A stretch of DNA of 64,000 nt from Thermosyntropha sp. (GTDB taxonomy: Bacteria; Bacillota; Syntrophomonadia; Syntrophomonadales; Syntrophomonadaceae), in the NCBI RefSeq assembly GCF_017656155.1, contig NZ_JACDOH010000002.1:248001-312000 (forward strand). Reading direction: 5' to 3'. Position 1 is the stretch's first letter. The number at the start of each line of letters is the position of its first letter. A program made the position numbers and the translations under genes. Positions 549 through 40,115 of the stretch are shown in pieces. The notes beneath the pieces are model-generated. The model ran no database searches and was not told the DNA's origin. It worked only from the letters and a program-made list of their open reading frames with translations.

Positions 549-578
549 AAAAACCCGACTTATGTCAGGCTTTTTTCC
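549..578 (-). terminator. Rho-independent terminator after the M41 protease
   Basis: Read on the minus strand, a CCTGAC/GTCGGG stem with an ATAA loop is followed by a run of six T. The hairpin overlaps the TGA stop codon of the M41 frame. It probably ends the whole stressosome operon transcript and separates it from cinA. Confidence 0.75.
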
Positions 579-1093
579 CAGATATAAAATCAATAAAACG
601 CTCTCTTGTAAAAAATTCTTCCTCTCTTGTTCGTTCAGCCATAATATAGAGTAAATCCTTGTTTGCATTTAAAATATCCCGGGTTTTATCCTCCAACTCT
701 CGAACTATTCTTTTGCTCTCATCATATACCAGCTTATCCGGCACATCTTCCATATTTATTACTCCTAAAGAAGATAATCCAGAAGCGATTATTTCCTTAG
801 CCGTATCCCAGGCGCTGGCAAAATCTCCTTTGGCTCCTGTACTGCGATTTTCATATTTTAGTTCTTCAGCGACAGCACCTGCCAGGGCAATCATAATCTG
901 CTTTTCCAGCTCCTCACGGGTATATAAATATTTGTCATTCCCCGGCGATTTTCTCATATACCCTAAAGACTTACCCCGGGGAACAATAGTAACTGAAGCA
1001 ACTGAACCGGGTTCAACCAGTTCACTCACCAGGGCATGTCCTATCTCATGAATGCTTACCCTTTCAACTTAATTCAAGTGCTGCCTCTTTCAT
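565..1093 (-). pseudogene. Stand-alone FtsH-type M41 peptidase, frameshifted near its 5' end
   Basis: The body matches the C-terminal protease domain of FtsH: HEIGHAL gives the HExxH zinc site, then VTIVPRGKSLGY, and AGAVAEEL with GAKGDFASA for the second half of the site. There is no AAA ATPase domain. The frame carrying HEIGH has no ATG, GTG or TTG upstream of that motif before a TAA stop. A well-placed ATG at 1093 behind GGGAGAG encodes MKEAALELS and then meets TGA at about 1064-1066. Removing one T at about 1066-1067 joins the frames into MKEAALELSERVSIHEIGHAL. I infer one gene of about 176 residues with a +1 frameshift, or a sequencing error. A GTG at 1029 could start a shorter product, but that would lose the zinc-binding histidines. 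It lies 43 bp after the HD-GYP gene and shares its transcript. Confidence 0.7.
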
Positions 1094-1136: not shown

Positions 1137-2783
1137 TTAGTTATTGAGTACTTTTCGCAAACTTATTTCCTTTCTAAAAATTTGACGAAAAACTTCGTCT
1201 TTATGATTTTCCTTTAACCCTACAAAAGAAAACTTATAATGTATTTTTTGCCCAACTTTTAACTTTTCAATTATCCTACCCGGCAGGGGGACTCTAGTTC
1301 CATCATCGAAATAAGGTACAACAATATATATCTTATTCATGTCTAATTTATATTCTTTTTCTGGAAAACAAAAAACTAAACCTTCACCTGATATGCGGGT
1401 AATAGTTATTTCGTGGGCTTCTTTAATGTCAGAAAAAACGATGTGCCCTGGCAAGAGCCAGAGTAAACCAAAGGAAGACTTAGTCTCATAAGGGGATATA
1501 TACTGGAATACGATCTTATTTTTTTCAACCTTTTTACCTTGGGCAACATATTCAAAAATCATATTAAACTTTTCCAACACTAAATTAAATTCATATAATT
1601 TATCGTTTTCTAACCCCTCTATAAGATAAGCTGAATTAAAAACAAGTTCATTGTCAATTTTAGTTATAATTCCTTCATAAGAGTAAAATTCCTTGCTATT
1701 TTTAACAACTACAGTAGCAGGTAAAACTACATCTTCAAAAATATCATAAGTATAATAATTGAGCTTTTTACCTAATATTTCTATCGCTACATCAGCTATT
1801 TCTGGATCAAAATCGGTTCCCCGGCATCTTTTAATTTCAGCTATTGCCTCATCCAACCTCATAGATTTTTTATAACTTCTATCTGAAAGAATAGCATCAA
1901 GTGCATCAGCTATTTTTAAAATCCTAGCTTCTCTAAAAATATCTGCCCCTTTTATTCCTTTCGGATAGCCTGTTCCATCCCATTTTTCATGATGCTGATA
2001 TATCCAAAGGGGAATAGGAGAATTTTGATCAAATAAAAACATTTCTCTAGCTAACATGTAACCTATATCAACATGTTTCTTTACTTCTTCAAATTCCTTT
2101 TCTGTCAATTTACCTTTCTTATTTATTATATCCATGTTCACAAAAATCTTACCGATATCATGCATCAAAGCTGCCAAATAAATCTCAGTAAGCTCTTCGT
2201 CAGAATAACCTAGTTTTCTAGCAATTTGTACTGCCCAAGCAGCTACATTATAAATATGAGTTACCATAAAAGGAGATTTTTCCGAAAATATTTCATGAAT
2301 AAGTATAATAATATCAATTAAACCTTTATAGCCAAATTTCTTATAACTAAGCATCAGCAAAAGATAAATATTATTATTAACAATCTCTTGCAGCTTTCTA
2401 ATATCTACATTTAAATCTTTCTCTTCAAAAGTCCCTATACAAATAACCCCTATAACCTTGTCCCTAAAAACTAAAGGAAAATACCATTCTTTACTAGCCC
2501 CTTTTACCAAAGTGTCCGAGCTTAATATAGTATTTTCTAATGTCCTTCCTGTGGTATAAACTTCATATAAAATGTTATGAGTTAAGTCAAAATCAATAAA
2601 TTCAGAAAAATTATAATTCAAATGTTTATCTACTGCTATTGCCAATAACCTTACTGCCAGGTTCCCATTAAAAAAATATAAAATACAAAAATCAGCCTCC
2701 GAATATTTAAGAAACCGGCTGATTTCATCCTTTATATCATCTTTAGCAAAATAAATTTCAATTGGCTTATATTCTGCCTTCAT
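1137..2783 (-). CDS. GAF / HD-GYP phosphodiesterase with PilZ-like C-terminal region
   Basis: This 548-residue protein probably hydrolyses c-di-GMP. Residues 1-150 look like a GAF sensor domain. Residues about 165-340 hold the HD-GYP domain, with the metal-binding pair in MHDIGK (residues 207-212) and the signature HHEKWDGTGYP (264-274) intact. The C-terminal 190 residues resemble YcgR/PilZ-type beta-rich c-di-GMP-binding modules, but I see no clear RxxxR motif, so that part is tentative. No membrane segments are evident. The ATG at 2783 has GGAGG 7 bases upstream. It lies 48 bp after the GGDEF gene in the stressosome operon, so synthesis and breakdown of the messenger would be encoded together. 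Confidence 0.88.
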   Translation of the reverse strand: MKAEYKPIEIYFAKDDIKDEISRFLKYSEADFCILYFFNGNLAVRLLAIAVDKHLNYNFSEFIDFDLTHNILYEVYTTGRTLENTILSSDTLVKGASKEWYFPLVFRDKVIGVICIGTFEEKDLNVDIRKLQEIVNNNIYLLLMLSYKKFGYKGLIDIIILIHEIFSEKSPFMVTHIYNVAAWAVQIARKLGYSDEELTEIYLAALMHDIGKIFVNMDIINKKGKLTEKEFEEVKKHVDIGYMLAREMFLFDQNSPIPLWIYQHHEKWDGTGYPKGIKGADIFREARILKIADALDAILSDRSYKKSMRLDEAIAEIKRCRGTDFDPEIADVAIEILGKKLNYYTYDIFEDVVLPATVVVKNSKEFYSYEGIITKIDNELVFNSAYLIEGLENDKLYEFNLVLEKFNMIFEYVAQGKKVEKNKIVFQYISPYETKSSFGLLWLLPGHIVFSDIKEAHEITITRISGEGLVFCFPEKEYKLDMNKIYIVVPYFDDGTRVPLPGRIIEKLKVGQKIHYKFSFVGLKENHKDEVFRQIFRKEISLRKVLNN

Positions 2784-2831
2784 GCAAATCCTCCATTAAA
2801 ATGTATATAAAATAGTTTATTTACTAATATT

Positions 2832-3617
2832 TTACTTTATATTGCGATACATTTCTATTCTGTTTTTACCTTTACGCTTTGCTTCATACATAGCCAAATC
2901 AGCAAATCTTATAAGTTCATCCGCACTTTCAGGTTTATCTTCTGAATAAGAAGATAGTCCTATACTCACAGTAACTTTTATATTAAAATCACTTACAATC
3001 AAATTTTCAATCTTTTCTCTTATCCTCCCCGCTGGAATAATTGCCTGTTCATAATCTGAATTATTAAAAAGCAAAATAAATTCTTCGCCTCCAAAACGAA
3101 AAACCATATCATTTCCTCTGACATCCCTGCGCAAAACATCGGCAACTGTTTTTAACACTTCATCACCAATTCCATGTCCATAAACATCATTTATATTTTT
3201 AAAATTATCAAGGTCAAGCATGCCAACAGTAAAATTTTTACCTTTTTTAAGAGCATCTAGCCATAATAAAGAAAGCACCCTAGATAAAGCTAAACGATTG
3301 TAAAGCCCTGTTAATACATCTCTTTCCAATTGTTCACGCAAATTAAACATTATATTGTCTACTGACATAAAAATCTGGGCCAAAAATTCATTAGCCCTTT
3401 CTATATAAAGCCACTGTACCTGGTCGTTATCTTTTTCTACCCCTAAAACATCTTTCAAAGCATTAATATGTACATCTAAAATATTTACCGCTTCAGAAAA
3501 ATATGAATCATTAGGATCAATTAAATCTTCAAATGCTTCTACCAATACTCTTTCTTCTCCTCCATTTAACATATATTCCTTTAAATATTCTTTATATTTA
3601 TTAATATAGTCTTTCAA
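2832..3617 (-). CDS. GGDEF diguanylate cyclase of the stressosome operon
   Basis: The protein has 261 residues. Residues about 95-258 form a GGDEF domain with the active site written GGEEF (176-180). An RGND inhibitory site (167-170) lies exactly five residues before it, so product inhibition by c-di-GMP is likely. The first 90 residues are helical and resemble the N-terminal RsbT-binding domain of the phosphatase RsbU. I therefore infer that released RsbT binds here and switches the cyclase, as proposed for the Moorella stressosome. The start is a TTG behind AGGGGG and lies two bases after the stop of the preceding gene, so translation is coupled. Confidence 0.9.
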   Translation of the reverse strand: MKDYINKYKEYLKEYMLNGGEERVLVEAFEDLIDPNDSYFSEAVNILDVHINALKDVLGVEKDNDQVQWLYIERANEFLAQIFMSVDNIMFNLREQLERDVLTGLYNRLALSRVLSLLWLDALKKGKNFTVGMLDLDNFKNINDVYGHGIGDEVLKTVADVLRRDVRGNDMVFRFGGEEFILLFNNSDYEQAIIPAGRIREKIENLIVSDFNIKVTVSIGLSSYSEDKPESADELIRFADLAMYEAKRKGKNRIEMYRNIK

Positions 3618-3619
3618 CC

Positions 3620-4585
3620 TTAATCCCCCTTTAAAACCAATACTGAAACATCATCATTTTTTACCCCAAACCTTTCAGCAATGTCTTCTGCCAAAACCTG
3701 GATATCATAAACATTGTTTAGATCTAAAAGAGCAGGAGAAAATCGAGAAGAAACCCCATCTGAACAAGAAATAAGTAAAACTCTATGCAACATAAGATTT
3801 TCCCGGAATATTTTATATCTATTTATATTTCTGCCTACTATTCCCGGCATTTCCACTAATCTTCTAATTTTGCCATCCATTATAATCCAAACCCTTATAT
3901 TGCCTATATTAATATATTCCAGCCCATATTCAGACACTAAAGCAAGAAATAAAGCACATCCCCGACTATCATAGATAAAATGTTGCAAATCTAAAAAAAA
4001 TCTTTCTAAATTAGTAAATGGCTGTTCGTCAAAGAAAACTCCTATTTTTTCTGCTAACTTATTGGCTTCTAAGCCATGCCCTAAAACATCTGCATGTAAA
4101 ACTAAAAATTCTCCCTTTCCTACTTCTTTTATAGATATCAAATCCCCACTCTTTTCTTCCAAAAGATGAGGTCTTCCAGCTACTCCCCAGTTAATATAAA
4201 AGGACTTCCTAGATTTACTGTTTAAACATATAACTGCTTTAACCGTAATTCCGCCATATTCATTAGGCATAAAGCTAAATTCATCACTATTTTTTCGTAC
4301 AATTTTAAGTCCCAATCCTAAACTTTTATTTTTTTCATCAAAATAACGAGTATCATCTTTTTTTATCCCATAATCTACAGCAGTAATCGTTATCTTATCC
4401 GAATGTAAATCTATTTCAATATAACCTTTAGTTCCATATTTCAATATATTGGTAGCCAGTTCTTTGGCTACTAAAAAAACTTCCGGAACATTGGTAAAAT
4501 TTTTTTCCAACATTTTTTTTATGCGGTATTCTAAGATAGTTATATCTAAAACACTATCAATATTTACCTTTAAAAAATCAATCAA
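3620..4585 (-). CDS. Two-domain GHKL ATPase-like / SpoIIE-RsbX-type PP2C phosphatase
   Basis: The protein has 321 residues. Residues 1-115 resemble an RsbT/RsbW GHKL domain, with an N-box (ELATNILKY) and a glycine-rich G2 box (SLGLGLKIV). The G1 box reads DYGIKK instead of DxGxG, so ATP binding may be weakened. Residues about 125-320 form a SpoIIE/RsbX-like PP2C phosphatase with the metal-binding aspartates in SGDLISI, ADVLGHGLEA, SCSDGV and NDDVSVLVLK. In stressosome systems RsbX removes phosphate from RsbR and RsbS to reset the complex, which is the likely role here. The TTG start overlaps the RsbT stop by four bases (TTGA) with GGAGG eight bases upstream, so the two are translationally coupled. 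Confidence 0.85.
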   Translation of the reverse strand: MIDFLKVNIDSVLDITILEYRIKKMLEKNFTNVPEVFLVAKELATNILKYGTKGYIEIDLHSDKITITAVDYGIKKDDTRYFDEKNKSLGLGLKIVRKNSDEFSFMPNEYGGITVKAVICLNSKSRKSFYINWGVAGRPHLLEEKSGDLISIKEVGKGEFLVLHADVLGHGLEANKLAEKIGVFFDEQPFTNLERFFLDLQHFIYDSRGCALFLALVSEYGLEYINIGNIRVWIIMDGKIRRLVEMPGIVGRNINRYKIFRENLMLHRVLLISCSDGVSSRFSPALLDLNNVYDIQVLAEDIAERFGVKNDDVSVLVLKGD

Positions 4586-5013
4586 AAACTGCGCCTCCTC
4601 TTGGCAACAATTACTAAGGTTCCCTTTCCTACCTCTGATTTTATAGAAAATTCATCCATAAGCCTTCTAACTCCTGACAAACCTAATCCCAAGCTTCCTT
4701 TTGTCGTAGTAAACCCTCCAGTAATAGCCAAATCAATATCTTCAATTCCTGGTCCTCTGTCATAAGCCACCAGCTCTATATAAACATCTTTTCCCTCTTT
4801 TCTTTCTCTGATATATATAAAACCTTCACCTACATATCTGTAAATATTACGTGCAAGCTCAGAAACTACCGTAGATATCTTAGTTATATCGGCCAGGCTG
4901 AAGCCTAGTTTCTTAGCAATATCTTTTACCATCTGCCTGGCTATAACTATATCTTTTTCTTCATTTATCCTTACGAAAAAATCGTACTCTTCGGGCTTAA
5001 TAGAAATCAACAT
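4582..5013 (-). CDS. rsbT: Serine/threonine kinase RsbT (stressosome switch kinase)
   Basis: This is a GHKL kinase of 143 residues starting MLISIKPEEYDFFVR. It carries the N-box (SELARNIYRY), the G1 box (DRGPGI) and the G2 box (GLGLGLSG), all intact. RsbT phosphorylates RsbS and RsbR in the stressosome and then leaves to activate an output protein. I chose the ATG at 5013 because it follows the RsbS stop by 11 bases and has GGGG five bases upstream; a GTG at 5019 is an alternative. An ATG in the same frame at 5160 would extend the protein into rsbS and is rejected. The likely output is the GGDEF protein two genes downstream. Confidence 0.93.
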   Translation of the reverse strand: MLISIKPEEYDFFVRINEEKDIVIARQMVKDIAKKLGFSLADITKISTVVSELARNIYRYVGEGFIYIRERKEGKDVYIELVAYDRGPGIEDIDLAITGGFTTTKGSLGLGLSGVRRLMDEFSIKSEVGKGTLVIVAKRRRSF

Positions 5014-5024
5014 ACTCACCCCAA

Positions 5025-5387
5025 CTACTCTTCTATTCCAGCAAGTATTTCCAAGGCATTTTCTAAATTCATAGCATAATATATGCCTTTTATATTTACC
5101 CCCATCTGAGCCAAAGTCAAAGCTACCTGAGGCTGAATACCACATAATACCGTATAACATCCCATCATCCTTGCCATAGTGGCTGTTTCAGACAAGGTAT
5201 AGGAAATATAACTATCTATAATATCTACCATACTTACATCAATAATTACGCCTTTGACATCATTATTTTCAATTTCACTCAGTATCTGTTTCTGGATTTT
5301 TTCAACAGTAGTATCATCCAATTCTATCTGTATGGGAACTACAAGACAATCATAAATCTTTATAATAGGTACTACCCGCTCTTGCAT
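5025..5387 (-). CDS. rsbS: Stressosome scaffold protein RsbS (STAS domain)
   Basis: This is a single STAS domain of about 120 residues. It contains VDIIDSYIS, where the serine corresponds to the RsbS phosphorylation site, and GIQPQVALTLAQMG, typical of the family. RsbS builds the core of the stressosome together with RsbR and holds RsbT until it is phosphorylated. I prefer the ATG at 5387, which has GAGGT about 10 bases upstream. A TTG at 5417 in the same frame would overlap rsbR by 14 bases and add ten residues. The gene lies between rsbR and rsbT, the order found in stressosome operons generally. Confidence 0.93.
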   Translation of the reverse strand: MQERVVPIIKIYDCLVVPIQIELDDTTVEKIQKQILSEIENNDVKGVIIDVSMVDIIDSYISYTLSETATMARMMGCYTVLCGIQPQVALTLAQMGVNIKGIYYAMNLENALEILAGIEE

Positions 5388-5403
5388 ACTTTTTCTACCT
5401 CGC

Positions 5404-6093
5404 TTATCTTTTTTCAATAAGATTAATCACATACTTTAAAGCTGTTTCTAAATCTCTCTTTACGATTATATTATTAAAATCTACCCCTAGCTTAACTAAA
5501 GTATGAGCAATATCAGGCTTTATTCCTGTAATTACTACATCTGCGCCTAAAAATCTAACTGCCTTTATCATTTCCATTAAAAACCCGCCAACCACTGTAT
5601 CAATATAAGGTACTCCAGTAACATCTAATATGACATATTTAGCTTTATTAGCATCTATAAAAAGCAACAACTTTTCTGCCATAGCCTGGGCCCGCTCACT
5701 ATCCAGAGTACCAATAAGAGGAGTTAAAACTATATCATGCCAAATTCTAATAATAGGGGTAGCAAGTTCAGTCAATGCTTCCTTAACTTCTCGCAAATTA
5801 TTTTCTTTTTCCAAACAATATTCATTTTTAATATATATTATATACTTGAGCAGATCTTCTTTTGGAAAACCTTCTATCTTATCGGTTATAATATCTAAAG
5901 CACATAAAACCTCATCTATTTTCATAACTTCCAAAATTTTTTCTAAACTTTCTTTTATAGAGTTATGATATATATCACTATCTCCATATTCAGCTACTGA
6001 AATCAAAAGTTCTTCCCATATTTTTTCATGTCCAAATCTTTCTTGTAATAATTCCAAATAATTTGATAGATTTTTCAGAATCTGCTCTTTCAT
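5404..6093 (-). CDS. rsbR: Stressosome sensor protein RsbR
   Basis: The protein has 229 residues. The N-terminal 110 residues are helical and correspond to the variable sensory half of RsbR proteins, which is globin-like in Bacillus subtilis RsbRA. The C-terminal half is a STAS domain. The threonines in PYIDTVVGG and in ITGIKPD match the two phosphorylation sites of the family. The signal sensed cannot be told from sequence. It is the first gene of the operon and starts at an ATG behind AAGGGGG. A TATAAT-like box lies about 50 bases upstream without a convincing -35 element. Only one RsbR is present here, so any other sensor paralogues would have to be encoded elsewhere. Confidence 0.9.
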   Translation of the reverse strand: MKEQILKNLSNYLELLQERFGHEKIWEELLISVAEYGDSDIYHNSIKESLEKILEVMKIDEVLCALDIITDKIEGFPKEDLLKYIIYIKNEYCLEKENNLREVKEALTELATPIIRIWHDIVLTPLIGTLDSERAQAMAEKLLLFIDANKAKYVILDVTGVPYIDTVVGGFLMEMIKAVRFLGADVVITGIKPDIAHTLVKLGVDFNNIIVKRDLETALKYVINLIEKR

Positions 6094-6567
6094 TAAAATA
6101 AATCCCCCTTGTTTTAAAAATCATATTTTATTCTTAATTATATAGCTATTTTAGCATAAATTCGACAAGGATTATATTTTTTCCTTCGGGATGCTTTAAA
6201 AATTGAACCTTGTTCCAGGTTAAAGATAATCCTTGATACCTATCTGTTCTGCTGAACATCGCATATGGTATACTGGGAAACAAGTAATTACACAAACAAG
6301 TTTCGTTGTTCCCATGTACTCGGCAAATGTGATTACCCATTTGGTTCTTCGTGGTGTTCCAGCAGTAATTATGAACTAGTAGTTAAGACAAAGGCAAAAG
6401 ATGATCCACGATTGTTCAGTACCACCTTATTGAAGTATTAGCACTCTCAACCGTAGTTGTATCCACCCTTAAAGACCATGAAGACAAATTCCTTCCTAAT
6501 TTGATGCAAAAAGCTGAATAAAAAATATCCTGCTCCTGGGGAAGTTTTACTAGGAGCAGGACAAGCC
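6094..6567. other. 474-bp intergenic stretch with decayed coding traces
   Basis: No convincing gene. Short plus-strand fragments read like protein pieces broken by stops: MYSANVITHLVLRGVPAVI from 6313, and STLKDHEDKFLPNLMQKAE ending at about 6522. A 64-residue minus-strand frame at 6146-6340 resembles nothing I know. The stretch may be the remains of a lost gene or element between the CoA-transferase and the stressosome operon. The terminator of the CoA-transferase gene occupies its last part. Confidence 0.4.
6521..6561 (-). terminator. Rho-independent terminator after the CoA-transferase
   Basis: A perfect ten-base inverted repeat, TCCTGCTCCT and AGGAGCAGGA, encloses a 14-base loop and is followed on the minus strand by TATTTTTTATT. 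It lies just after the stop codon of the CoA-transferase gene. Confidence 0.85.
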
Positions 6568-15424: not shown

Positions 15425-15472
15425 TTCCTCTCAAAGCTTTTATTCTTTATTACAGAAATGCTTTTTACTTTT

Positions 15473-18400
15473 ACTTCAATTCCTCTTAGGTAGGCTAAAA
15501 ACGATGAGCTGATGGCCTTTATCAAAAAAGCGAAGTGAGTTTCAATTCCTCTTAGGTAGGCTAAAAACCAACTAGCCTTACAAGCGCAAGAAGAGCATCG
15601 AGGTTTCAATTCCTCTTAGGTAGGCTAAAAACCAGATACAGTTCTTCGTCAAAACTGTATGCCTCTTCGTTTCAATTCCTCTTAGGTAGGCTAAAAACCA
15701 CTCAGCGTCACCCCCCATCTGTTTGGGTGGCCCTAGTTTCAATTCCTCTTAGGTAGGCTAAAAACATATGTTTCAATGGGTTTTTTCAACCCCCTAGAAG
15801 GTTTCAATTCCTCTTAGGTAGGCTAAAAACCAAAAAGGTTTTGAACAAGCTGAAAGCGAGATTGAGTTTCAATTCCTCTTAGGTAGGCTAAAAACTCGTG
15901 GTTACGAAAATTTGATAATAAAAAAGAATTGTTTCAATTCCTCTTAGGTAGGCTAAAAACGAATATTTAAAGACTCTCCATAATTATTTAATGCTTGGTT
16001 TCAATTCCTCTTAGGTAGGCTAAAAACGAATATTTAAAGACTCTCCATAATTATTTAATGCTTGGTTTCAATTCCTCTTAGGTAGGCTAAAAACTACGTT
16101 AATGCCAAAGCTGGCATGATGGAAAATATGTTTCAATTCCTCTTAGGTAGGCTAAAAACTATTATCAATCCTTGGATTGTTCACAATCCAAGAATGGTTT
16201 CAATTCCTCTTAGGTAGGCTAAAAACGCTTCGCTTTAGCTGCGTATTGGGAATACCTAAACAGTTTCAATTCCTCTTAGGTAGGCTAAAAACCAAAATAA
16301 GCCATCCCTAAAAGTTTAACTAAATTCTCGTTTCAATTCCTCTTAGGTAGGCTAAAAACTTTCAATTTACTCCCTCCTTACTGCTCTTCAGAAGCATGTT
16401 TCAATTCCTCTTAGGTAGGCTAAAAACGTAGCATGCTAAAACTAATCCTGGAAAACCAGTATGTTTCAATTCCTCTTAGGTAGGCTAAAAACAATATGGC
16501 CTCCTTATGTCGTCATTGCCGACTTCATAGTTTCAATTCCTCTTAGGTAGGCTAAAAACTTTTCTTCGGGGTTCCATCTGCATCCCATCTGCTTGTTTCA
16601 ATTCCTCTTAGGTAGGCTAAAAACGTTCTTTGTCCAGCATTCTGAATATCTGGAAACCTTGTTTCAATTCCTCTTAGGTAGGCTAAAAACGGGAAAAGTT
16701 AATCTCAACGATCTGGAACGTGCAGTGTTTCAATTCCTCTTAGGTAGGCTAAAAACTGAAAAAATTAGGTTTGCCTGAAACGGATTTAATTTGTTTCAAT
16801 TCCTCTTAGGTAGGCTAAAAACTTGAATCAGGGGATAATTTTCAAGTATTGTTAGGTAAGTTTCAATTCCTCTTAGGTAGGCTAAAAACCCTCTATGCCA
16901 CCCATTTGCCACCTGTAAGGGGTCGGGTTTCAATTCCTCTTAGGTAGGCTAAAAACACCTGCGCCAGCTTTTCACCTTCGCCACCAAATTTAGTTTCAAT
17001 TCCTCTTAGGTAGGCTAAAAACTGCTGAGAAAATCGTTATGATGATGGGATTATCCAGGTTTCAATTCCTCTTAGGTAGGCTAAAAACCAGAAGAAGAGC
17101 GACTATTAGCGAACCCTGGTTATCAGGGTTTCAATTCCTCTTAGGTAGGCTAAAAACAAATCAGAAACCCAGAAAGAAGCGTCAGGAGAAAAAGTTTCAA
17201 TTCCTCTTAGGTAGGCTAAAAACTTTCCTCCCTTCCAATATCGGACGTATGCAAAAAGCGGTTTCAATTCCTCTTAGGTAGGCTAAAAACATGCTGATGA
17301 ATTCTATGTAAAAGAGAAAGGGGAAGTTTCAATTCCTCTTAGGTAGGCTAAAAACGTAGCCTGATACCGTCGTGCCCAGTAATTGGCTACGTTTCAATTC
17401 CTCTTAGGTAGGCTAAAAACTAAAAGAAAGGATATTATATGATGATGTTTTTAGACAGTTTCAATTCCTCTTAGGTAGGCTAAAAACATAGTTATATAAA
17501 CAGTAAAAAATCTGATAAAAATAGGTTTCAATTCCTCTTAGGTAGGCTAAAAACTAATTTCGCTGTTATATGCTCTTACATATATAGTATGTTTCAATTC
17601 CTCTTAGGTAGGCTAAAAACCAGAAAAAAAATGTATAAAAAAAAACAGAAACGCGAGTTTCAATTCCTCTTAGGTAGGCTAAAAACGAAATTCTACCACC
17701 CATACTAGCTGCAACTGTACCAGTTTCAATTCCTCTTAGGTAGGCTAAAAACTACAAAAACAGAAAAACCTATTGTTCTACCAGTTATGTTTCAATTCCT
17801 CTTAGGTAGGCTAAAAACCCTGCACGCCCGCTAGGATTTACAGTTTGTCCTACGTTTCAATTCCTCTTAGGTAGGCTAAAAACGTAGCGATTTTGGCATA
17901 CAGAACGGCAGCATAACAGGTTTCAATTCCTCTTAGGTAGGCTAAAAACTGGTCATAGTTCTCAATCCACATATATAAGTACGATGAAGTTTCAATTCCT
18001 CTTAGGTAGGCTAAAAACTGAGAGTATCCTTAAATTTAATAGCCGCTCCGTAGTTTCAATTCCTCTTAGGTAGGCTAAAAACTGTGGCCGCATTGAAAAT
18101 GAATTAGTTTTCGAATGGGGTTTCAATTCCTCTTAGGTAGGCTAAAAACATTCTTCCGGTATTTCATCAATGGAAAATATTTTCAGTTTCAATTCCTCTT
18201 AGGTAGGCTAAAAACTCTGTCCGGCATTTTTTATTTTGCTTGCTTTTTTGGGTTTCAATTCCTCTTAGGTAGGCTAAAAACATATATGTCTCCACTCTCT
18301 TAAATTAGCAGTAACTAGTTTCAATTCCTCTTAGGTAGGCTAAAAACAATACTAATAAACCTGAAATTAGTCTAGAAGATTAGTTTCAATTCCTCTTAGG

Positions 18401-21400
18401 TAGGCTAAAAACAACGTATCATGTCAAGTATTGCCAGAAAAAAAAAGTAGTTTCAATTCCTCTTAGGTAGGCTAAAAACACAATCCCGACAGAAACAAAT
18501 ACTGGAGAAAGAGAGTTTCAATTCCTCTTAGGTAGGCTAAAAACTTAAATGAAATTCATACTATTTTAACTAAAGGAGGGTTTCAATTCCTCTTAGGTAG
18601 GCTAAAAACAAGTTCCCGGTGCGGGAAATGGCAGACCGGGGGTTAAGTTTCAATTCCTCTTAGGTAGGCTAAAAACGAGCTCGTTATAGTCTTTGTATTT
18701 TTCTCTTTCACGCTTGTTTCAATTCCTCTTAGGTAGGCTAAAAACAAAACCCGCTCACGCCGCCGAACAGCGCGATAAACATGTTTCAATTCCTCTTAGG
18801 TAGGCTAAAAACTATTCGTCCTGCATCCGAATATATTCCTGTAGATGGTTTCAATTCCTCTTAGGTAGGCTAAAAACGAAAGAGCATTAGATAGGCTGCC
18901 GGAAACACACCGGGTTTCAATTCCTCTTAGGTAGGCTAAAAACTAGATACAGACAATGGTAATCTATATGCCTCCCCTCGTTTCAATTCCTCTTAGGTAG
19001 GCTAAAAACAAAAACCTTTTTGAACAGAATCTGCTCCGCTGGAAAGTTTCAATTCCTCTTAGGTAGGCTAAAAACATATATGTCTCCACTCTCTTAAATT
19101 AGCAGTAACTAGTTTCAATTCCTCTTAGGTAGGCTAAAAACAATACTAATAAACCTGAAATTAGTCTAGAAGATTAGTTTCAATTCCTCTTAGGTAGGCT
19201 AAAAACGAAGATAGTGTAGAAGATAAGGGTTTTTGAGAAAAGTTTCAATTCCTCTTAGGTAGGCTAAAAACCACCGAAACCTCACTCTCAGGAGAAACCT
19301 CCTGAGAAGGTTTCAATTCCTCTTAGGTAGGCTAAAAACCTGGATGAAATGCAGGAACACTGGCGTTCTTTCTAGTTTCAATTCCTCTTAGGTAGGCTAA
19401 AAACCCACTTAGTGGAATCATATTCATTCTGAATTTCATGTTTCAATTCCTCTTAGGTAGGCTAAAAACCAGGTATTTTCCTGAAAATCCAGTTCGCCAA
19501 AGATAGTTTCAATTCCTCTTAGGTAGGCTAAAAACTCATGTCCATATTGGCATAAGATTTACGGTTATGCAGGTTTCAATTCCTCTTAGGTAGGCTAAAA
19601 ACACTTATATCCAGTATAACCTGAATAATGCTAAAAAAGTTTCAATTCCTCTTAGGTAGGCTAAAAACGAGTTTTCCGTTAAATACGGTATAAGTATTAA
19701 TTGTTTCAATTCCTCTTAGGTAGGCTAAAAACATATACATTATTAAGTATCCATTCCGCCCGCACAGCGTTTCAATTCCTCTTAGGTAGGCTAAAAACTT
19801 GGCTAAAATTACAACATATATCCCATACACATCATTGTTTCAATTCCTCTTAGGTAGGCTAAAAACAAGGTAGTGAAATATGAACATTGCTTTTGATATA
19901 GCGTTTCAATTCCTCTTAGGTAGGCTAAAAACCAAGAACCATCCACATCATAAACAGGAGTTCCATCCGAGTTTCAATTCCTCTTAGGTAGGCTAAAAAC
20001 CAGTGCTTTCACAGTATTGGGGTGCAGCTTGTGCCATCGCGTTTCAATTCCTCTTAGGTAGGCTAAAAACGGAGATTTCAAAGTCCTAATTACTTCCCCA
20101 TTTTCTGGTTTCAATTCCTCTTAGGTAGGCTAAAAACAGCCTCCCTTCTCTTTCGGTTAAAAGCAGCCAAACCCAGTTTCAATTCCTCTTAGGTAGGCTA
20201 AAAACCATTTCTTTTTTGTTTTGCCTAGTATCTGTTATACGTTTCAATTCCTCTTAGGTAGGCTAAAAACTTATTACATTGAAACTGTTAATGCGACAGA
20301 GGCTTAGTTTCAATTCCTCTTAGGTAGGCTAAAAACTTTATAGATTCACCTGTAAAACAAAATACTTTATCCACGTTTCAATTCCTCTTAGGTAGGCTAA
20401 AAACAGGATTGTCAACTATGAGGATGCCGTTGTCATCGGTGTTTCAATTCCTCTTAGGTAGGCTAAAAACTCGAGCTGTACGTGCCAAGTTTTCTTTTAT
20501 CTGTTCGTTTCAATTCCTCTTAGGTAGGCTAAAAACTAATAAGGTTAATGCCTGGGTTAATGAGGAAATATGTTTCAATTCCTCTTAGGTAGGCTAAAAA
20601 CCACTAGAATTATTCAACGATTGCGAAAGGTAATTGCGTTTCAATTCCTCTTAGGTAGGCTAAAAACCATATCTGTTCCTACCCAAACTATAGAAGGTGC
20701 TCCGTTTCAATTCCTCTTAGGTAGGCTAAAAACGAAGGAATTAGAATAACCTCATCCCCCGGCTTAAGCTGTTTCAATTCCTCTTAGGTAGGCTAAAAAC
20801 TATATGATGGAGATACTGGTGCTGTTGATGAGATTCTAGTTTCAATTCCTCTTAGGTAGGCTAAAAACCCAGAACATATTATTGGACAATTTCCGTTTTC
20901 TTGACGTTTCAATTCCTCTTAGGTAGGCTAAAAACCTATAATGATAATTCCTTTATTCAGGTATAAAGAAAAGTTTCAATTCCTCTTAGGTAGGCTAAAA
21001 ACAAAAGGAGGAATTTAAATGGCCTTTTCTCATGGTTCGTTTCAATTCCTCTTAGGTAGGCTAAAAACGGGATTGGAGAACAATATACCGAAATTTGAGG
21101 CAGCATGTTTCAATTCCTCTTAGGTAGGCTAAAAACTCATATGTTTCTTTTTCTTATCACAATATTTTCTAGTTTCAATTCCTCTTAGGTAGGCTAAAAA
21201 CCAGGAATGGCGGATTTGAGACAGCATTCCAACCCGCAGGGTTTCAATTCCTCTTAGGTAGGCTAAAAACAAACCGGTATTAAAAAACGGTTCTCGAAAT
21301 TCTTCCAGTTTCAATTCCTCTTAGGTAGGCTAAAAACTATTCGTCCTGCATCCGAATATATTCCTGTAGATGGTTTCAATTCCTCTTAGGTAGGCTAAAA

Positions 21401-22205
21401 ACGAAAGAGCATTAGATAGGCTGCCGGAAACACACCGGGTTTCAATTCCTCTTAGGTAGGCTAAAAACTAGATACAGACAATGGTAATCTATATGCCTCC
21501 CCTCGTTTCAATTCCTCTTAGGTAGGCTAAAAACAAAAACCTTTTTGAACAGAATCTGCTCCGCTGGAAAGTTTCAATTCCTCTTAGGTAGGCTAAAAAC
21601 CATCTTCTGAAACTTCTTTGGCAACAGGCATCGGAATGTTTCAATTCCTCTTAGGTAGGCTAAAAACTGAGGATTTGCCGGATTATCAACCAGGTCTATT
21701 TTTTTGTTTCAATTCCTCTTAGGTAGGCTAAAAACTAGCCTAGGGACGCCTTTTCTTATTGATTTTCACAGTTTCAATTCCTCTTAGGTAGGCTAAAAAC
21801 CCAAAGCTGCAAGAGAACGGCTCACAAAGCAAGCAACTGGTTTCAATTCCTCTTAGGTAGGCTAAAAACAGGAAAGAGACCAAAAAAGAGGAGAGGGGAA
21901 TAAATGAGTTTCAATTCCTCTTAGGTAGGCTAAAAACCGAATTGGAGCGAATATCAACAGGAAAATGGACTAAGTTTCAATTCCTCTTAGGTAGGCTAAA
22001 AACATCAATCCCATCCCCTTTTTCTTGGAACGAATGAAAAGTTTCAATTCCTCTTAGGTAGGCTAAAAACTCGCCGCCAAAAACAAATTCATAGTTTTTG
22101 AAACCAAAGTTTCAATTCCTCTTAGGTAGGCTAAAAACTCTAAGTCTTCTTCGTCAATCATGTCGCCGTGTTTATGTTTCAATTCCTCTTAGGTAGGCTA
22201 AAAAC
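15473..22205 (-). CRISPR. Type I-B CRISPR array: 102 repeats, 101 spacers
   Basis: The 30-base repeat reads, on the plus strand, GTTTCAATTCC, then TCTTAGGTA, then GGCTAAAAAC. Counting every copy gives 102 repeats. Start-to-start distances are 64-70 bases, so spacers are 34-40 bases. On the minus strand the repeat ends ATTGAAAC, the usual 5' handle of type I-B crRNAs. A leader promoter right of 22205 also points leftward, so the array reads from high to low coordinates and the oldest spacers are at the left. The leftmost repeat starts AC instead of GT, the terminal decay expected at the distal end; the other copies I checked look identical. Seven spacers are second copies of others, leaving 94 distinct. 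Several spacers include a ribosome site plus ATG (for example near 21002-21038 and 21870-21907), as expected of DNA taken from phage genes. Confidence 0.98.
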
Positions 22206-37038: not shown

Positions 37039-39816
37039 TTATTTGAGTTTTTCAACTACCCCGGCACAGCGTGAACAAAGGGTAGGATATTCACTATTCT
37101 GACCTACCGAAGGAGATATTATCCAGCAACGTTCACATTTTTCTCCTTCCGCTTTTTTAACTTCAACCCAGACCCCTTCAATTTCAGGAAGAGAGCGGGT
37201 ATCTTCCGGCCTTTCTCCCGCCGGTTTTATATCTACCCGGGAAGAAATAAAAATCTTATCCAAGAAAGAAACTTCATTTAAAACCTTAAGCCAATCTTCT
37301 TCAGCATAAATGGTTACCCATGCCCCTAATGAATGTCCTATAATCTTATTTGCCCGGGCCTCTTCCATAGCTTTAGTAACTACTTCCCGAACTTTAAGTA
37401 TTTTTTCCATTCTGTCTTCAATATCATGATCTTCGTATCCTTTAACTTCAGGCCATTCTAAAAGCTGGACACTTATAGGCTGTCCTTCTCTTCTCAGATA
37501 ACTCCAGATTTCTTCCGTAGTAAAAGCTAAAATAGGAGTTAAAAGCACAACCAGAGCATTAATAAGCTCATATAAAACGGTTTGCACTCCTCTTCTTCCT
37601 ATATCGTCAGGATGCGAACAGTAAAGTATATCTTTACAGATATCGAAATAAATGTTGCTTAAATCAACTGTACAGAAATTATGGATAGAATGGAAGACCA
37701 CATGAAACTCATAATTTTCATAAGCCCTTGTAACCCGCTCAATCAGTTTATCTAGCTTTATAAGTATCCATTTATCCATTTCAGACAATTTTTCATATTC
37801 TACCTTATGTTTATCCGGATCATAATCAAAAAGATTTCCTAATATAAAACGGCAGGTATTTCTTATTTTACGATAAGCTTCTGCACTCTGCCTTATTATA
37901 TTTTCTGATACTGCTACATCAGATCGATAATCAGCCGAAGAAACCCAAAGCCTTAAAATATCTGCCCCCATCTCTTCAATCATCTGCAAGGGATCAACCA
38001 CATTGCCTAAAGACTTTGACATCTTGCGTCCTTGTTCATCCACTACAAAACCATGGGTCAAGACGCTGCGATAAGGTGCCCTGCCTTTAACTGCCACTGC
38101 CGTAGACAATGATGAGTTGAACCATCCGCGATGCTGGTCGCTTCCCTCCAGATAAAGAGCTGCCGGCCACACTAAATCAGGATGAGTTTCCAAAACTGCC
38201 ATATGGCTGGAACCTGAATCAAACCACACATCCATAATGTCAGTTTCCTTACGGAAACTTAAGCTCCCGCATTTTTCGCATTTATATCCTTCAGGTAATA
38301 AATATTTCGCATCTTTTTCGAACCATATATCTGAACCAAATTCGGCAAAAAGCTGACTTACTCTCTCAATGGTGGCATCATTAATTACAGTTTCACCACA
38401 TTCTGTGCAGTAGAATATGGGTATAGGCACACCCCAAGTGCGCTGCCTTGAGATACACCAGTCTCCGCGGTCTCTGACCATATTATAAATTCTATCGCGT
38501 CCCCAGGCCGGAATCCAAGTTACCTCATCAATAGCCTCTAATGCTTCCTTACGGAAGTTTTCAATAGAGGCAAACCACTGTTCAGTAGCTCTGTAAATTA
38601 TAGGATTTTTACATCTCCAGCAATATGGATACTGATGCTCAATCTTTGAAGACTTTAAAAGCATACCTAAAGCTTCGAGCTCAGCAATAACATCCTTATT
38701 GGCATCATGTACAAAAAGCCCTTTAAACTTTCCAGCTTCTTCAGTAAAGTGTCCGCTGTTATCCACCGGTGATATAACTTCAAGACCGTATTGCCTGCCA
38801 ACATAGAAGTCATCTTCCCCATGTCCGGGAGCAGTATGAACACATCCGGTACCAGCTTCTAAAGTAACATGAGTGCCCAATATCACCAGAGAATCCCTTT
38901 CAAAAATAGGATGCCTGCATACAATCCTTTCCAGGTCTTTCCCTTTATATTCGTTTAAGATAACATAAGCATTCCAGCCTATTTCGCCGGCAACCTTTTC
39001 TAACAGTCCTCTTGCCAACACATATTTTTCTTTATTTACCTCTATAAGGACATAATCAAAATCAGGATGAACAGCTATCCCTGTATTGGCAGGAATAGTC
39101 CATGGAGTAGTTGTCCATATGATTACATAAGAATCTTCCGGAAGTACTCCCCGTCCGTCTTTTACCGGGAATTTTACATATATTGAAGGTGAAATTTTGC
39201 TGCTATATTCAATTTCAGCTTCAGCTAAAGCAGTTTCACAATCTGCACACCAGTAAACCGGCTTAAGCCCTTTATATATATATCCCTTTTTAGCCATTTC
39301 CCCAAAAACTTTTATTTGAATGGCTTCAAAATAAGGCTCCAGAGTAAGATAAGGCTTCTCCCAATCCCCTCTTACTCCCAATCTTTTAAACTGTTCTCTC
39401 TGGATATCTACATAACTTAATGCGTAATCCCTGCACTGACGCCGGAATTCCACCACATCAGTCTTATGCCGGTCTATACCCATCTTCTTGATAGCTTGCT
39501 GTTCAATGGGAAGGCCATGCGTATCCCAGCCGGGAACATAAGGAGCATCAAATCCGCTCATCGAACGATATTTCACAATTATATCCTTGAGGACTTTATT
39601 CAAAGTATGGCCTAGATGTATATTACCGTTGGCATAAGGAGGTCCATCATGCAAAATAAATTTAGGTTTTCCTACGTTTTTCTCCTGAACTTTATGATAT
39701 ATATCATTTTCTTCCCAAAACTTCAAAAATTCAGGCTCCCTCTTAGGCAAATTAGCCTTCATAGGAAATTGAGTTTGCGGTAAATTTAAAGTGCTGTCAT
39801 ACTTGCCTTTACCCAT
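37039..39816 (-). CDS. ileS: Isoleucyl-tRNA synthetase
   Basis: This class I synthetase charges tRNA-Ile. It has the HIGH signature as HLGH in PPYANGNIHLGHTLNK, the CP1 editing domain with TTTPWTIPANTGIAV, and the KMSKS loop in [12 protein letters not shown]-terminal zinc finger holds CERCW and CSRCAG. At 925 residues it has normal bacterial length. I prefer the ATG at 39816 (MGKGKYDSTLNLPQTQFP) to the one at 39849 because it has GAGGTGG about ten bases upstream and matches the family. A T-box leader precedes it. Confidence 0.96.
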   Translation of the reverse strand: MGKGKYDSTLNLPQTQFPMKANLPKREPEFLKFWEENDIYHKVQEKNVGKPKFILHDGPPYANGNIHLGHTLNKVLKDIIVKYRSMSGFDAPYVPGWDTHGLPIEQQAIKKMGIDRHKTDVVEFRRQCRDYALSYVDIQREQFKRLGVRGDWEKPYLTLEPYFEAIQIKVFGEMAKKGYIYKGLKPVYWCADCETALAEAEIEYSSKISPSIYVKFPVKDGRGVLPEDSYVIIWTTTPWTIPANTGIAVHPDFDYVLIEVNKEKYVLARGLLEKVAGEIGWNAYVILNEYKGKDLERIVCRHPIFERDSLVILGTHVTLEAGTGCVHTAPGHGEDDFYVGRQYGLEVISPVDNSGHFTEEAGKFKGLFVHDANKDVIAELEALGMLLKSSKIEHQYPYCWRCKNPIIYRATEQWFASIENFRKEALEAIDEVTWIPAWGRDRIYNMVRDRGDWCISRQRTWGVPIPIFYCTECGETVINDATIERVSQLFAEFGSDIWFEKDAKYLLPEGYKCEKCGSLSFRKETDIMDVWFDSGSSHMAVLETHPDLVWPAALYLEGSDQHRGWFNSSLSTAVAVKGRAPYRSVLTHGFVVDEQGRKMSKSLGNVVDPLQMIEEMGADILRLWVSSADYRSDVAVSENIIRQSAEAYRKIRNTCRFILGNLFDYDPDKHKVEYEKLSEMDKWILIKLDKLIERVTRAYENYEFHVVFHSIHNFCTVDLSNIYFDICKDILYCSHPDDIGRRGVQTVLYELINALVVLLTPILAFTTEEIWSYLRREGQPISVQLLEWPEVKGYEDHDIEDRMEKILKVREVVTKAMEEARANKIIGHSLGAWVTIYAEEDWLKVLNEVSFLDKIFISSRVDIKPAGERPEDTRSLPEIEGVWVEVKKAEGEKCERCWIISPSVGQNSEYPTLCSRCAGVVEKLK

Positions 39817-39854
39817 TTTCCTCTTACCACCTCGCCAGATTATTTTCATTTAAA

Positions 39855-40115
39855 TCAACAAAAACCTTTCATCCTCCAGGGACGAAAGGTTTGCTTCCGC
39901 GGTACCACCCTTATAGTGTTTTTAAAAACACCACTCTCATGCTCCATAACGCGAGCAGCGTTCAAACCTACTCGTCAATCTCAACTTTCGGCTTGAAAGC
40001 TCACGGGTGATCTTCAGCCAGAAATCAGCTATCCGGCTTCCACCATCCCGGACTCGCTTAAAGCTGAAAAATCCGCCTACTCTCCCGCTCATCGCCATGA
40101 ATATTCATTTTACCT
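39855..40115 (-). promoter_or_regulatory. T-box riboswitch controlling ileS
   Basis: On the minus strand the leader carries the T-box sequence AGGGTGGTACCGCG at 39911-39898, the part that pairs with the acceptor end of uncharged tRNA. The terminator AACCTTTC/GAAAGGTT follows at about 39860-39892, with T residues after it. Stem I features are visible upstream (GAGAGTA and GGTGGAAGCC). An ATC isoleucine codon at 40011-40009, in the context GAAGATCACC, is the likely specifier. Uncharged tRNA-Ile should stabilise the antiterminator and turn ileS on. Confidence 0.93.

Follow-up and report, generated by a model that had tools for sequence, protein, structure and literature searches.

Stressosomes have mostly been studied through SigB, and a locus of Thermosyntropha sp. 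raises the question of what such a complex controls in a genome where no SigB is found. The locus occupies positions 1137-6093 of a 64,000-nucleotide stretch of DNA (contig NZ_JACDOH010000002.1, 248,001 to 312,000; assembly GCF_017656155.1), hereafter the window. It consists of six open reading frames (ORFs), all on the minus strand, in the order RsbR, RsbS, RsbT, X, diguanylate cyclase (DGC) and HD-GYP protein. We consider it fairly probable that this is a stressosome operon with an output in cyclic di-GMP (c-di-GMP), in which RsbT would gate the cyclase as source and the presumably co-transcribed HD-GYP protein would act as sink.

Operon layout

The original prediction, made from the sequence, had placed the same six genes at these coordinates. 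Indeed, their Pfam domains (STAS, STAS, HATPase_c, HATPase_c(_2) with a weak SpoIIE match, GGDEF and HD_5/HD) and signature motifs agree with it. The features of the locus are the following:

6171..6200, minus strand: possible sigma-A-type promoter (TTTAAA-18-TATAAT) upstream of rsbR, the number of such promoter-like sites in the region being not above that in shuffles
5404..6093, minus strand: RsbR-like stressosome subunit (229 aa; STAS 1.5e-16)
5025..5417, minus strand: RsbS-like STAS scaffold (120-130 aa; STAS 1.3e-14; IDSY motif)
4582..5013, minus strand: RsbT switch kinase (HATPase_c 8e-11; ORF as listed began at 5160)
3620..4585, minus strand: X, putative feedback phosphatase at the RsbX position (degenerate HATPase, ~1-125; PP2C, 126-321)
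2832..3617, minus strand: DGC (261 aa; GGDEF 6.8e-43)
2784..2831, minus strand: gap of 48 bp between the DGC and HD-GYP genes, with a GGAGG ribosome-binding site and, on scanning, no terminator-like site
1137..2783, minus strand: GAF-like, HD-GYP and PilZ-like protein (548 aa; HD_5 4.6e-36)

RsbR stops at 5404, and RsbS starts at ATG 5387, the better candidate, or at TTG 5417; RsbS in turn stops at 5025; for RsbT, ATG 5013 or GTG 5019 is the likely start, in place of the listed 5160. RsbT and X overlap by 4 bp, and X is spaced from the DGC by 2 bp. All junctions are overlaps or spacings of 2-16 bp, the 48 bp before the HD-GYP gene being the sole exception.

The stressosome core and its conservation

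RsbR comprises a helical N-terminal domain of about 110 residues, followed by a STAS domain with IDT and TGIKP at phosphosite-type positions. It is conserved in 12 relatives, and its ELATP linker and STAS domain align with RsbR chains of solved structure (E 1e-32 to 1e-35). These linker and STAS matches were the only ones retained from the search with the RsbR alignment, the N-terminal sensor domain having no match in the PDB by sequence; a match to a kinetochore helix was judged spurious. RsbS is 66% identical to its orthologue in T. lipolytica DSM 11003 (G049), the same-genus relative used for comparison, whose stressosome locus lies on NZ_FQWY01000007.1 (C51). RsbT is 54-69% identical to 17 stressosome RsbTs, with invariant N-box and G boxes, and belongs to a stressosome RsbT clade of 25 rows with a support of 100/100. 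RsbR and RsbS with conserved phosphosite positions are thus encoded alongside an RsbT kinase, and by analogy they may form a sensing shell that sequesters RsbT.

The fourth gene had been described as a kinase/PP2C two-domain protein, and only its second half is intact. Its PP2C metal-binding aspartates are all present (SGD, ADVLGHG, SDG, NDD), whereas in the HATPase half the G1 box is degenerate and the ATP lid deleted. With such a PP2C encoded beside RsbR, RsbS and RsbT, an RsbX-type feedback phosphatase is the best reading of X, the role of its kinase-like half being perhaps limited to shell binding. Other clade members carry a single-domain PP2C in this operon slot.

The RsbR-S-T-X-DGC order and spacing are conserved in about 20 Bacillota genomes. 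An identical order, including a DGC with an RsbU_N-type N-domain, is found in Moorella thermoacetica, whose stressosome, MtR-MtS-MtT-MtX-MtG, was reportedly described by Quin et al. in 2012; locus L079 of our sample is this M. thermoacetica locus, its RsbS and RsbR N-domain being 100% identical to PDB 2vy9 and 3zta. The two operons differ in that MtG (439 aa) is composed of RsbU_N, GAF and GGDEF domains, whereas the window DGC (261 aa) has no GAF domain and a divergent RsbU_N, and in that X carries the additional degenerate HATPase domain by comparison with MtX. Behind MtG, at 218 bp, lies an HD-GYP ORF that is possibly truncated.

The cyclase as probable target of RsbT

The DGC consists of a helical N-domain (residues ~1-90), a helical linker and a GGDEF domain with GGEEF and an RGND I-site, and the helical N-domain (first ~95 residues) is common to about 20 stressosome cyclases. 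It was compared by hhalign with RsbU_N profiles drawn from RsbU, MtG-type and other proteins, with a held-out model used for comparison. The scores reached 31-33 (E 2e-5), whereas none of 150 column-shuffled profiles exceeded 18.1 and a reversed profile gave 10.3. The alignment follows the RsbU register (Y..L..Y, E24, A30, IxxIHxxAL), and E24 of RsbU, implicated in RsbT binding, is retained. In a PDB profile search with the same domain, the RsbU chains 1w53, 2j6z and 2j70 ranked 3-5, again in this register, at non-significant E values of 0.36-0.6. AlphaFold predicts helices at residues 2-17, 22-32, 40-58 and 66-96, the last continuing into the GGDEF domain.

Several observations weigh against the proposed wiring. 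A second RsbU residue implicated in RsbT binding, Y28, is not conserved, the window DGC having V26; in scans of the short cyclases, Pfam RsbU_N (PF08673) stays below its cut-off, with no match in the window DGC and 13.7 versus 25.5 bits in that of L099. Foldseek with the model of the N-domain (predicted local distance difference test, pLDDT, 77) returned no RsbU_N match and nothing at E <= 0.001, and with the full DGC model its top matches were GGDEF structures only. On the side of the sink, no phosphodiesterase was found behind the cyclase at the T. lipolytica stressosome locus.

On the strength of the profile comparisons, we regard the N-domain as very probably a divergent RsbU_N, so that the RsbRSTX operon would contain a Moorella-type cyclase, recognizable by a divergent profile match only. 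RsbT docks on the RsbU_N and linker of RsbU, and MtG has been modelled with RsbU_N (PMC12143880). Since RsbU_N is the RsbT-binding domain, RsbT most likely gates the cyclase. The sign of this control is uncertain, because the Moorella RsbT homologue MtT binds and attenuates MtG (PMC7647112), so that attenuation would be expected by analogy; another source has the cyclase phosphorylated instead (PMC4976288), secondary sources disagreeing on the MtT/MtG mechanism.

Absence of a SigB output

Bacillus subtilis (rsbRST-rsbU-rsbVW-sigB-rsbX) shares RsbR, RsbS, RsbT and the principle of RsbU_N docking, but there a PP2C is the output and releases SigB, whereas the genome studied here is without rsbV, rsbW and sigB. 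These genes had been noted as missing near the operon, and a genome-wide search by family extends this to the whole 2.1 Mb. Only three STAS proteins are encoded (RsbR, RsbS and SpoIIAA), together with a single SpoIIAB/RsbW-type kinase, adjoining SigF, and four region-3 sigma factors (the primary one, SigF and two reading as SigD/FliA and SigG, names other than SigF being assigned by sequence recognition or rank only). SpoIIAA/AB-SigF is thus the only partner-switching sigma module. As the genome holds no SigB, RsbV or RsbW, a hidden SigB module elsewhere as the true output is ruled out. The stressosome-to-cyclase wiring, anticipated from Moorella, is upheld by the divergent RsbU_N, the conserved operon and the lack of a SigB output; this part of the system is already known.

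Globin-sensor stressosomes, in Vibrio vulnificus and others, likewise have RSTX followed by c-di-GMP enzymes (PMC9237108, PMC10014275): clusters with GGDEF, EAL or HD (HDc) domains downstream have been catalogued (PMC9237108), and a c-di-GMP-degrading output has been hypothesised for V. vulnificus (PMC10014275). They differ from the window operon by a globin RsbR and, in Vibrio, by a two-component output, and no pair of short RsbU_N-GGDEF and GAF-HD-GYP proteins is reported for them (PMC9237108, PMC10014275). In the Pseudomonas SiaABCD and HsbRAD systems, partner switching likewise controls a GGDEF enzyme via an N-terminal stalk, but the partner is SiaC/HsbA rather than RsbT, and the stressosome shell is absent.

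The HD-GYP protein: sink or passenger?

The sixth protein has intact HD-GYP motifs (HDIGK...HHEKWDGTGYP), which mark it as a predicted phosphodiesterase, and sub-threshold matches to GAF_2 and to PilZ (17.3 versus a cut-off of 22.5 bits). Does it belong to the system, or is its gene a lineage-specific passenger from a paralogue family, with no tie to the stressosome, the system then being RST-X-DGC only? The T. lipolytica locus and most relatives do not have the gene, which rules it out as a conserved operon member. Full-length relatives, about 37-48% identical, lie away from stressosomes: in T. lipolytica on C87, with a GGDEF gene and a glycosyltransferase nearby, in Thermoanaerobacter-type genomes and, as a frameshifted paralogue, in the same genome (C1). 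The 48 bp in front of the gene also contrast with the 2 bp or overlap at the X-DGC and T-X junctions. However, this gap is terminator-free and the ribosome-binding site is good; as the genome has no more than about 19 HD-GYP candidates, adjacency by chance is roughly estimated at about 1%; and phosphodiesterase genes of various families fill the equivalent position in other lineages. We therefore hold the passenger to be rather unlikely, and a sink that works with the cyclase remains our preferred reading.

The frameshift splits the same-genome paralogue (C1:217675-219299; L193:4673-6303) into two ORFs. Just upstream of the T. lipolytica stressosome operon, at L043:2662-6057, a CheW-like gene and a response-regulator gene are found together with an HD-GYP fragment; the window has none of the three at this place.

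Phosphodiesterases beside other stressosomes

The search across genomes for RsbR, RsbS and RsbT beside GGDEF and HD-GYP genes gave a divided answer: phosphodiesterases are recurrent, while the HD-GYP protein of the window type is not conserved. Three groups of loci were found.

GGDEF-EAL protein behind the stressosome cyclase, at about -35 to +101 bp, in about eight loci: L102 (Desulfovirgula thermocuniculi), L103 (Desulforamulus putei), L101 (Moorella stamsii), L049, L058, L059, L061 and L088
HD-GYP protein with a genuine N-terminal RsbU_N (57-73 bits; cut-off 25.5), of RsbU_N-GAF-HD-GYP architecture, in three loci: L107:3881-5317 (Peptococcaceae bacterium BRH_c4a), L113:10865-12277 and L117:9062-10861 (Ca. 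Bipolaricaulota)
GGDEF-HD-GYP fusion encoded behind RST-X: L082, from the window's own family

Most of the GGDEF-EAL proteins keep the EAL catalytic motifs, and the GGDEF motif is degenerate in several. That of L101 follows a cyclase remnant, and in L052, where no intact short cyclase was found, an EAL protein follows X. L113, labelled Deltaproteobacteria, also holds an RsbU_N-GGDEF protein and two RsbT-like kinases, and its cyclase and phosphodiesterase genes are separated by transposase-like ORFs; a phylum sample centred on this locus was for the most part identical to the main sample and added little. Counted by strongly supported branches of the RsbT tree, a minimum of four changes is needed for HD-GYP linkage and of three for EAL linkage, losses possibly among them. 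That different phosphodiesterases were recruited to one and the same position argues most strongly for a functional pair in the window. The addition of a phosphodiesterase to the stressosome-cyclase operon thus seems to have occurred several separate times and to be little described: we found no account of RsbU_N on HD-GYP proteins, or of a Bacillota RST-X-DGC-phosphodiesterase operon, in a literature search that covered few subscription journals and is weak evidence of absence.

Two side observations concern these loci. Coordinates of GGDEF-EAL genes include L059:10348-12069, L103:9857-11581 and L102:9812-11500; the N-terminal domain of these proteins has no family assignment, and one member has a weak Protoglobin match. 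In L107, a stand-alone RsbU_N of 103 aa (3507-3818) lies between X and the RsbU_N-HD-GYP gene, for which a decoy for RsbT and a remnant of a lost cyclase are candidate readings.

Is the circuit closed?

The original prediction went further and proposed a dedicated on/off circuit, in which the stressosome drives both enzymes oppositely and the phosphodiesterase senses c-di-GMP via its PilZ-like domain. A single operon does hold both enzymes, and the RsbU_N-HD-GYP proteins of L107, L113 and L117 make RsbT-gated phosphodiesterases plausible in principle. However, the window HD-GYP protein was searched for RsbU_N and has none, and its gene, as seen above, has no counterpart at the T. lipolytica locus. 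Its PilZ-like domain, moreover, lacks RxxxR and the D/NxSxxG aspartate (TKSSFG and TRISGEG stand there), unlike the genome's own YcgR in the same alignment (RSYVR and DISAGG); both are also missing from the paralogue and from the T. lipolytica relative. Because of these missing residues, c-di-GMP sensing by the PilZ-like tail is unlikely, and the PilZ feedback sensor was rejected. The idea of stressosome, cyclase and phosphodiesterase in one system gains support from the repeated occupation of the position by different phosphodiesterases elsewhere, while the self-sensing closed circuit is improbable.

It is more improbable still that the RsbT target lies elsewhere, in an unlinked kinase or phosphatase, with the cyclase as a bystander: the RsbU_N homology is remote and no interaction of RsbT with the downstream protein was found in V. 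vulnificus (PMC9237108), but the genome contains no other Pfam RsbU_N protein and no SigB module, and the RST-X-DGC order is conserved with a co-inherited RsbT clade.

Other features of the genome and window

The genome encodes 12 GGDEF domains and one canonical PilZ protein, YcgR, beside FlhG-like and CheB genes in a flagellar-chemotaxis cluster. A c-di-GMP-I riboswitch search of the genome gave no match, control genomes being likewise silent. Outside the operon, the window contains:

565-1075, minus strand: Peptidase M41 (FtsH-type) fragment with no in-frame upstream start and no ATPase domain, which looks truncated or frameshifted
15471-22205: CRISPR (clustered regularly interspaced short palindromic repeats) array of ~102 repeats (GTTTCAATTCCTCTTAGGTAGGCTAAAAAC), with cas genes from ~22672 and internal duplications of 161 bp and 293 bp, each present twice at 100% identity (18252/19046; 18783/21308)
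39875-40101, minus strand: T-box leader upstream of an isoleucyl-tRNA synthetase-like gene at 37039-39849

Proposed mechanism and significance

In the operon as we read it, RsbR and RsbS would form a sensing shell that retains RsbT. Upon a signal, RsbT would phosphorylate RsbR and RsbS, depart from the shell and dock on the divergent RsbU_N of the DGC encoded two genes downstream, altering its activity through the helical linker, with attenuation expected if Moorella MtT and MtG are a guide. X would then reset the shell by dephosphorylating RsbS and RsbR. The HD-GYP protein, presumably co-transcribed, would be the phosphodiesterase sink; its own GAF-like domain, not RsbT, would tune it, and the c-di-GMP pool would thereby track the gating of the source quickly. 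The readout is likely the YcgR/PilZ protein, i.e. motility.

More tentatively, stressosomes may be general two-sided controllers of c-di-GMP, with RsbU_N fused to phosphodiesterases as well as to cyclases, both types occurring in L113, or, as in the window lineage and the EAL-carrying relatives, with a phosphodiesterase added to the operon without the docking domain; this is possible, though we would not call it probable. Source and sink could in that case be adjusted jointly by a single released kinase or by two. The proteins of L107, L113 and L117 make RsbT gating of a phosphodiesterase directly testable. A clade of stressosomes with a short RsbU_N-like cyclase, beside which EAL, HD-GYP and RsbU_N-HD-GYP proteins were repeatedly recruited, would give c-di-GMP the rank of a principal stressosome output in thermophilic Bacillota, with RsbU_N as a receiver that can be plugged into PP2C, kinase, cyclase and phosphodiesterase proteins.

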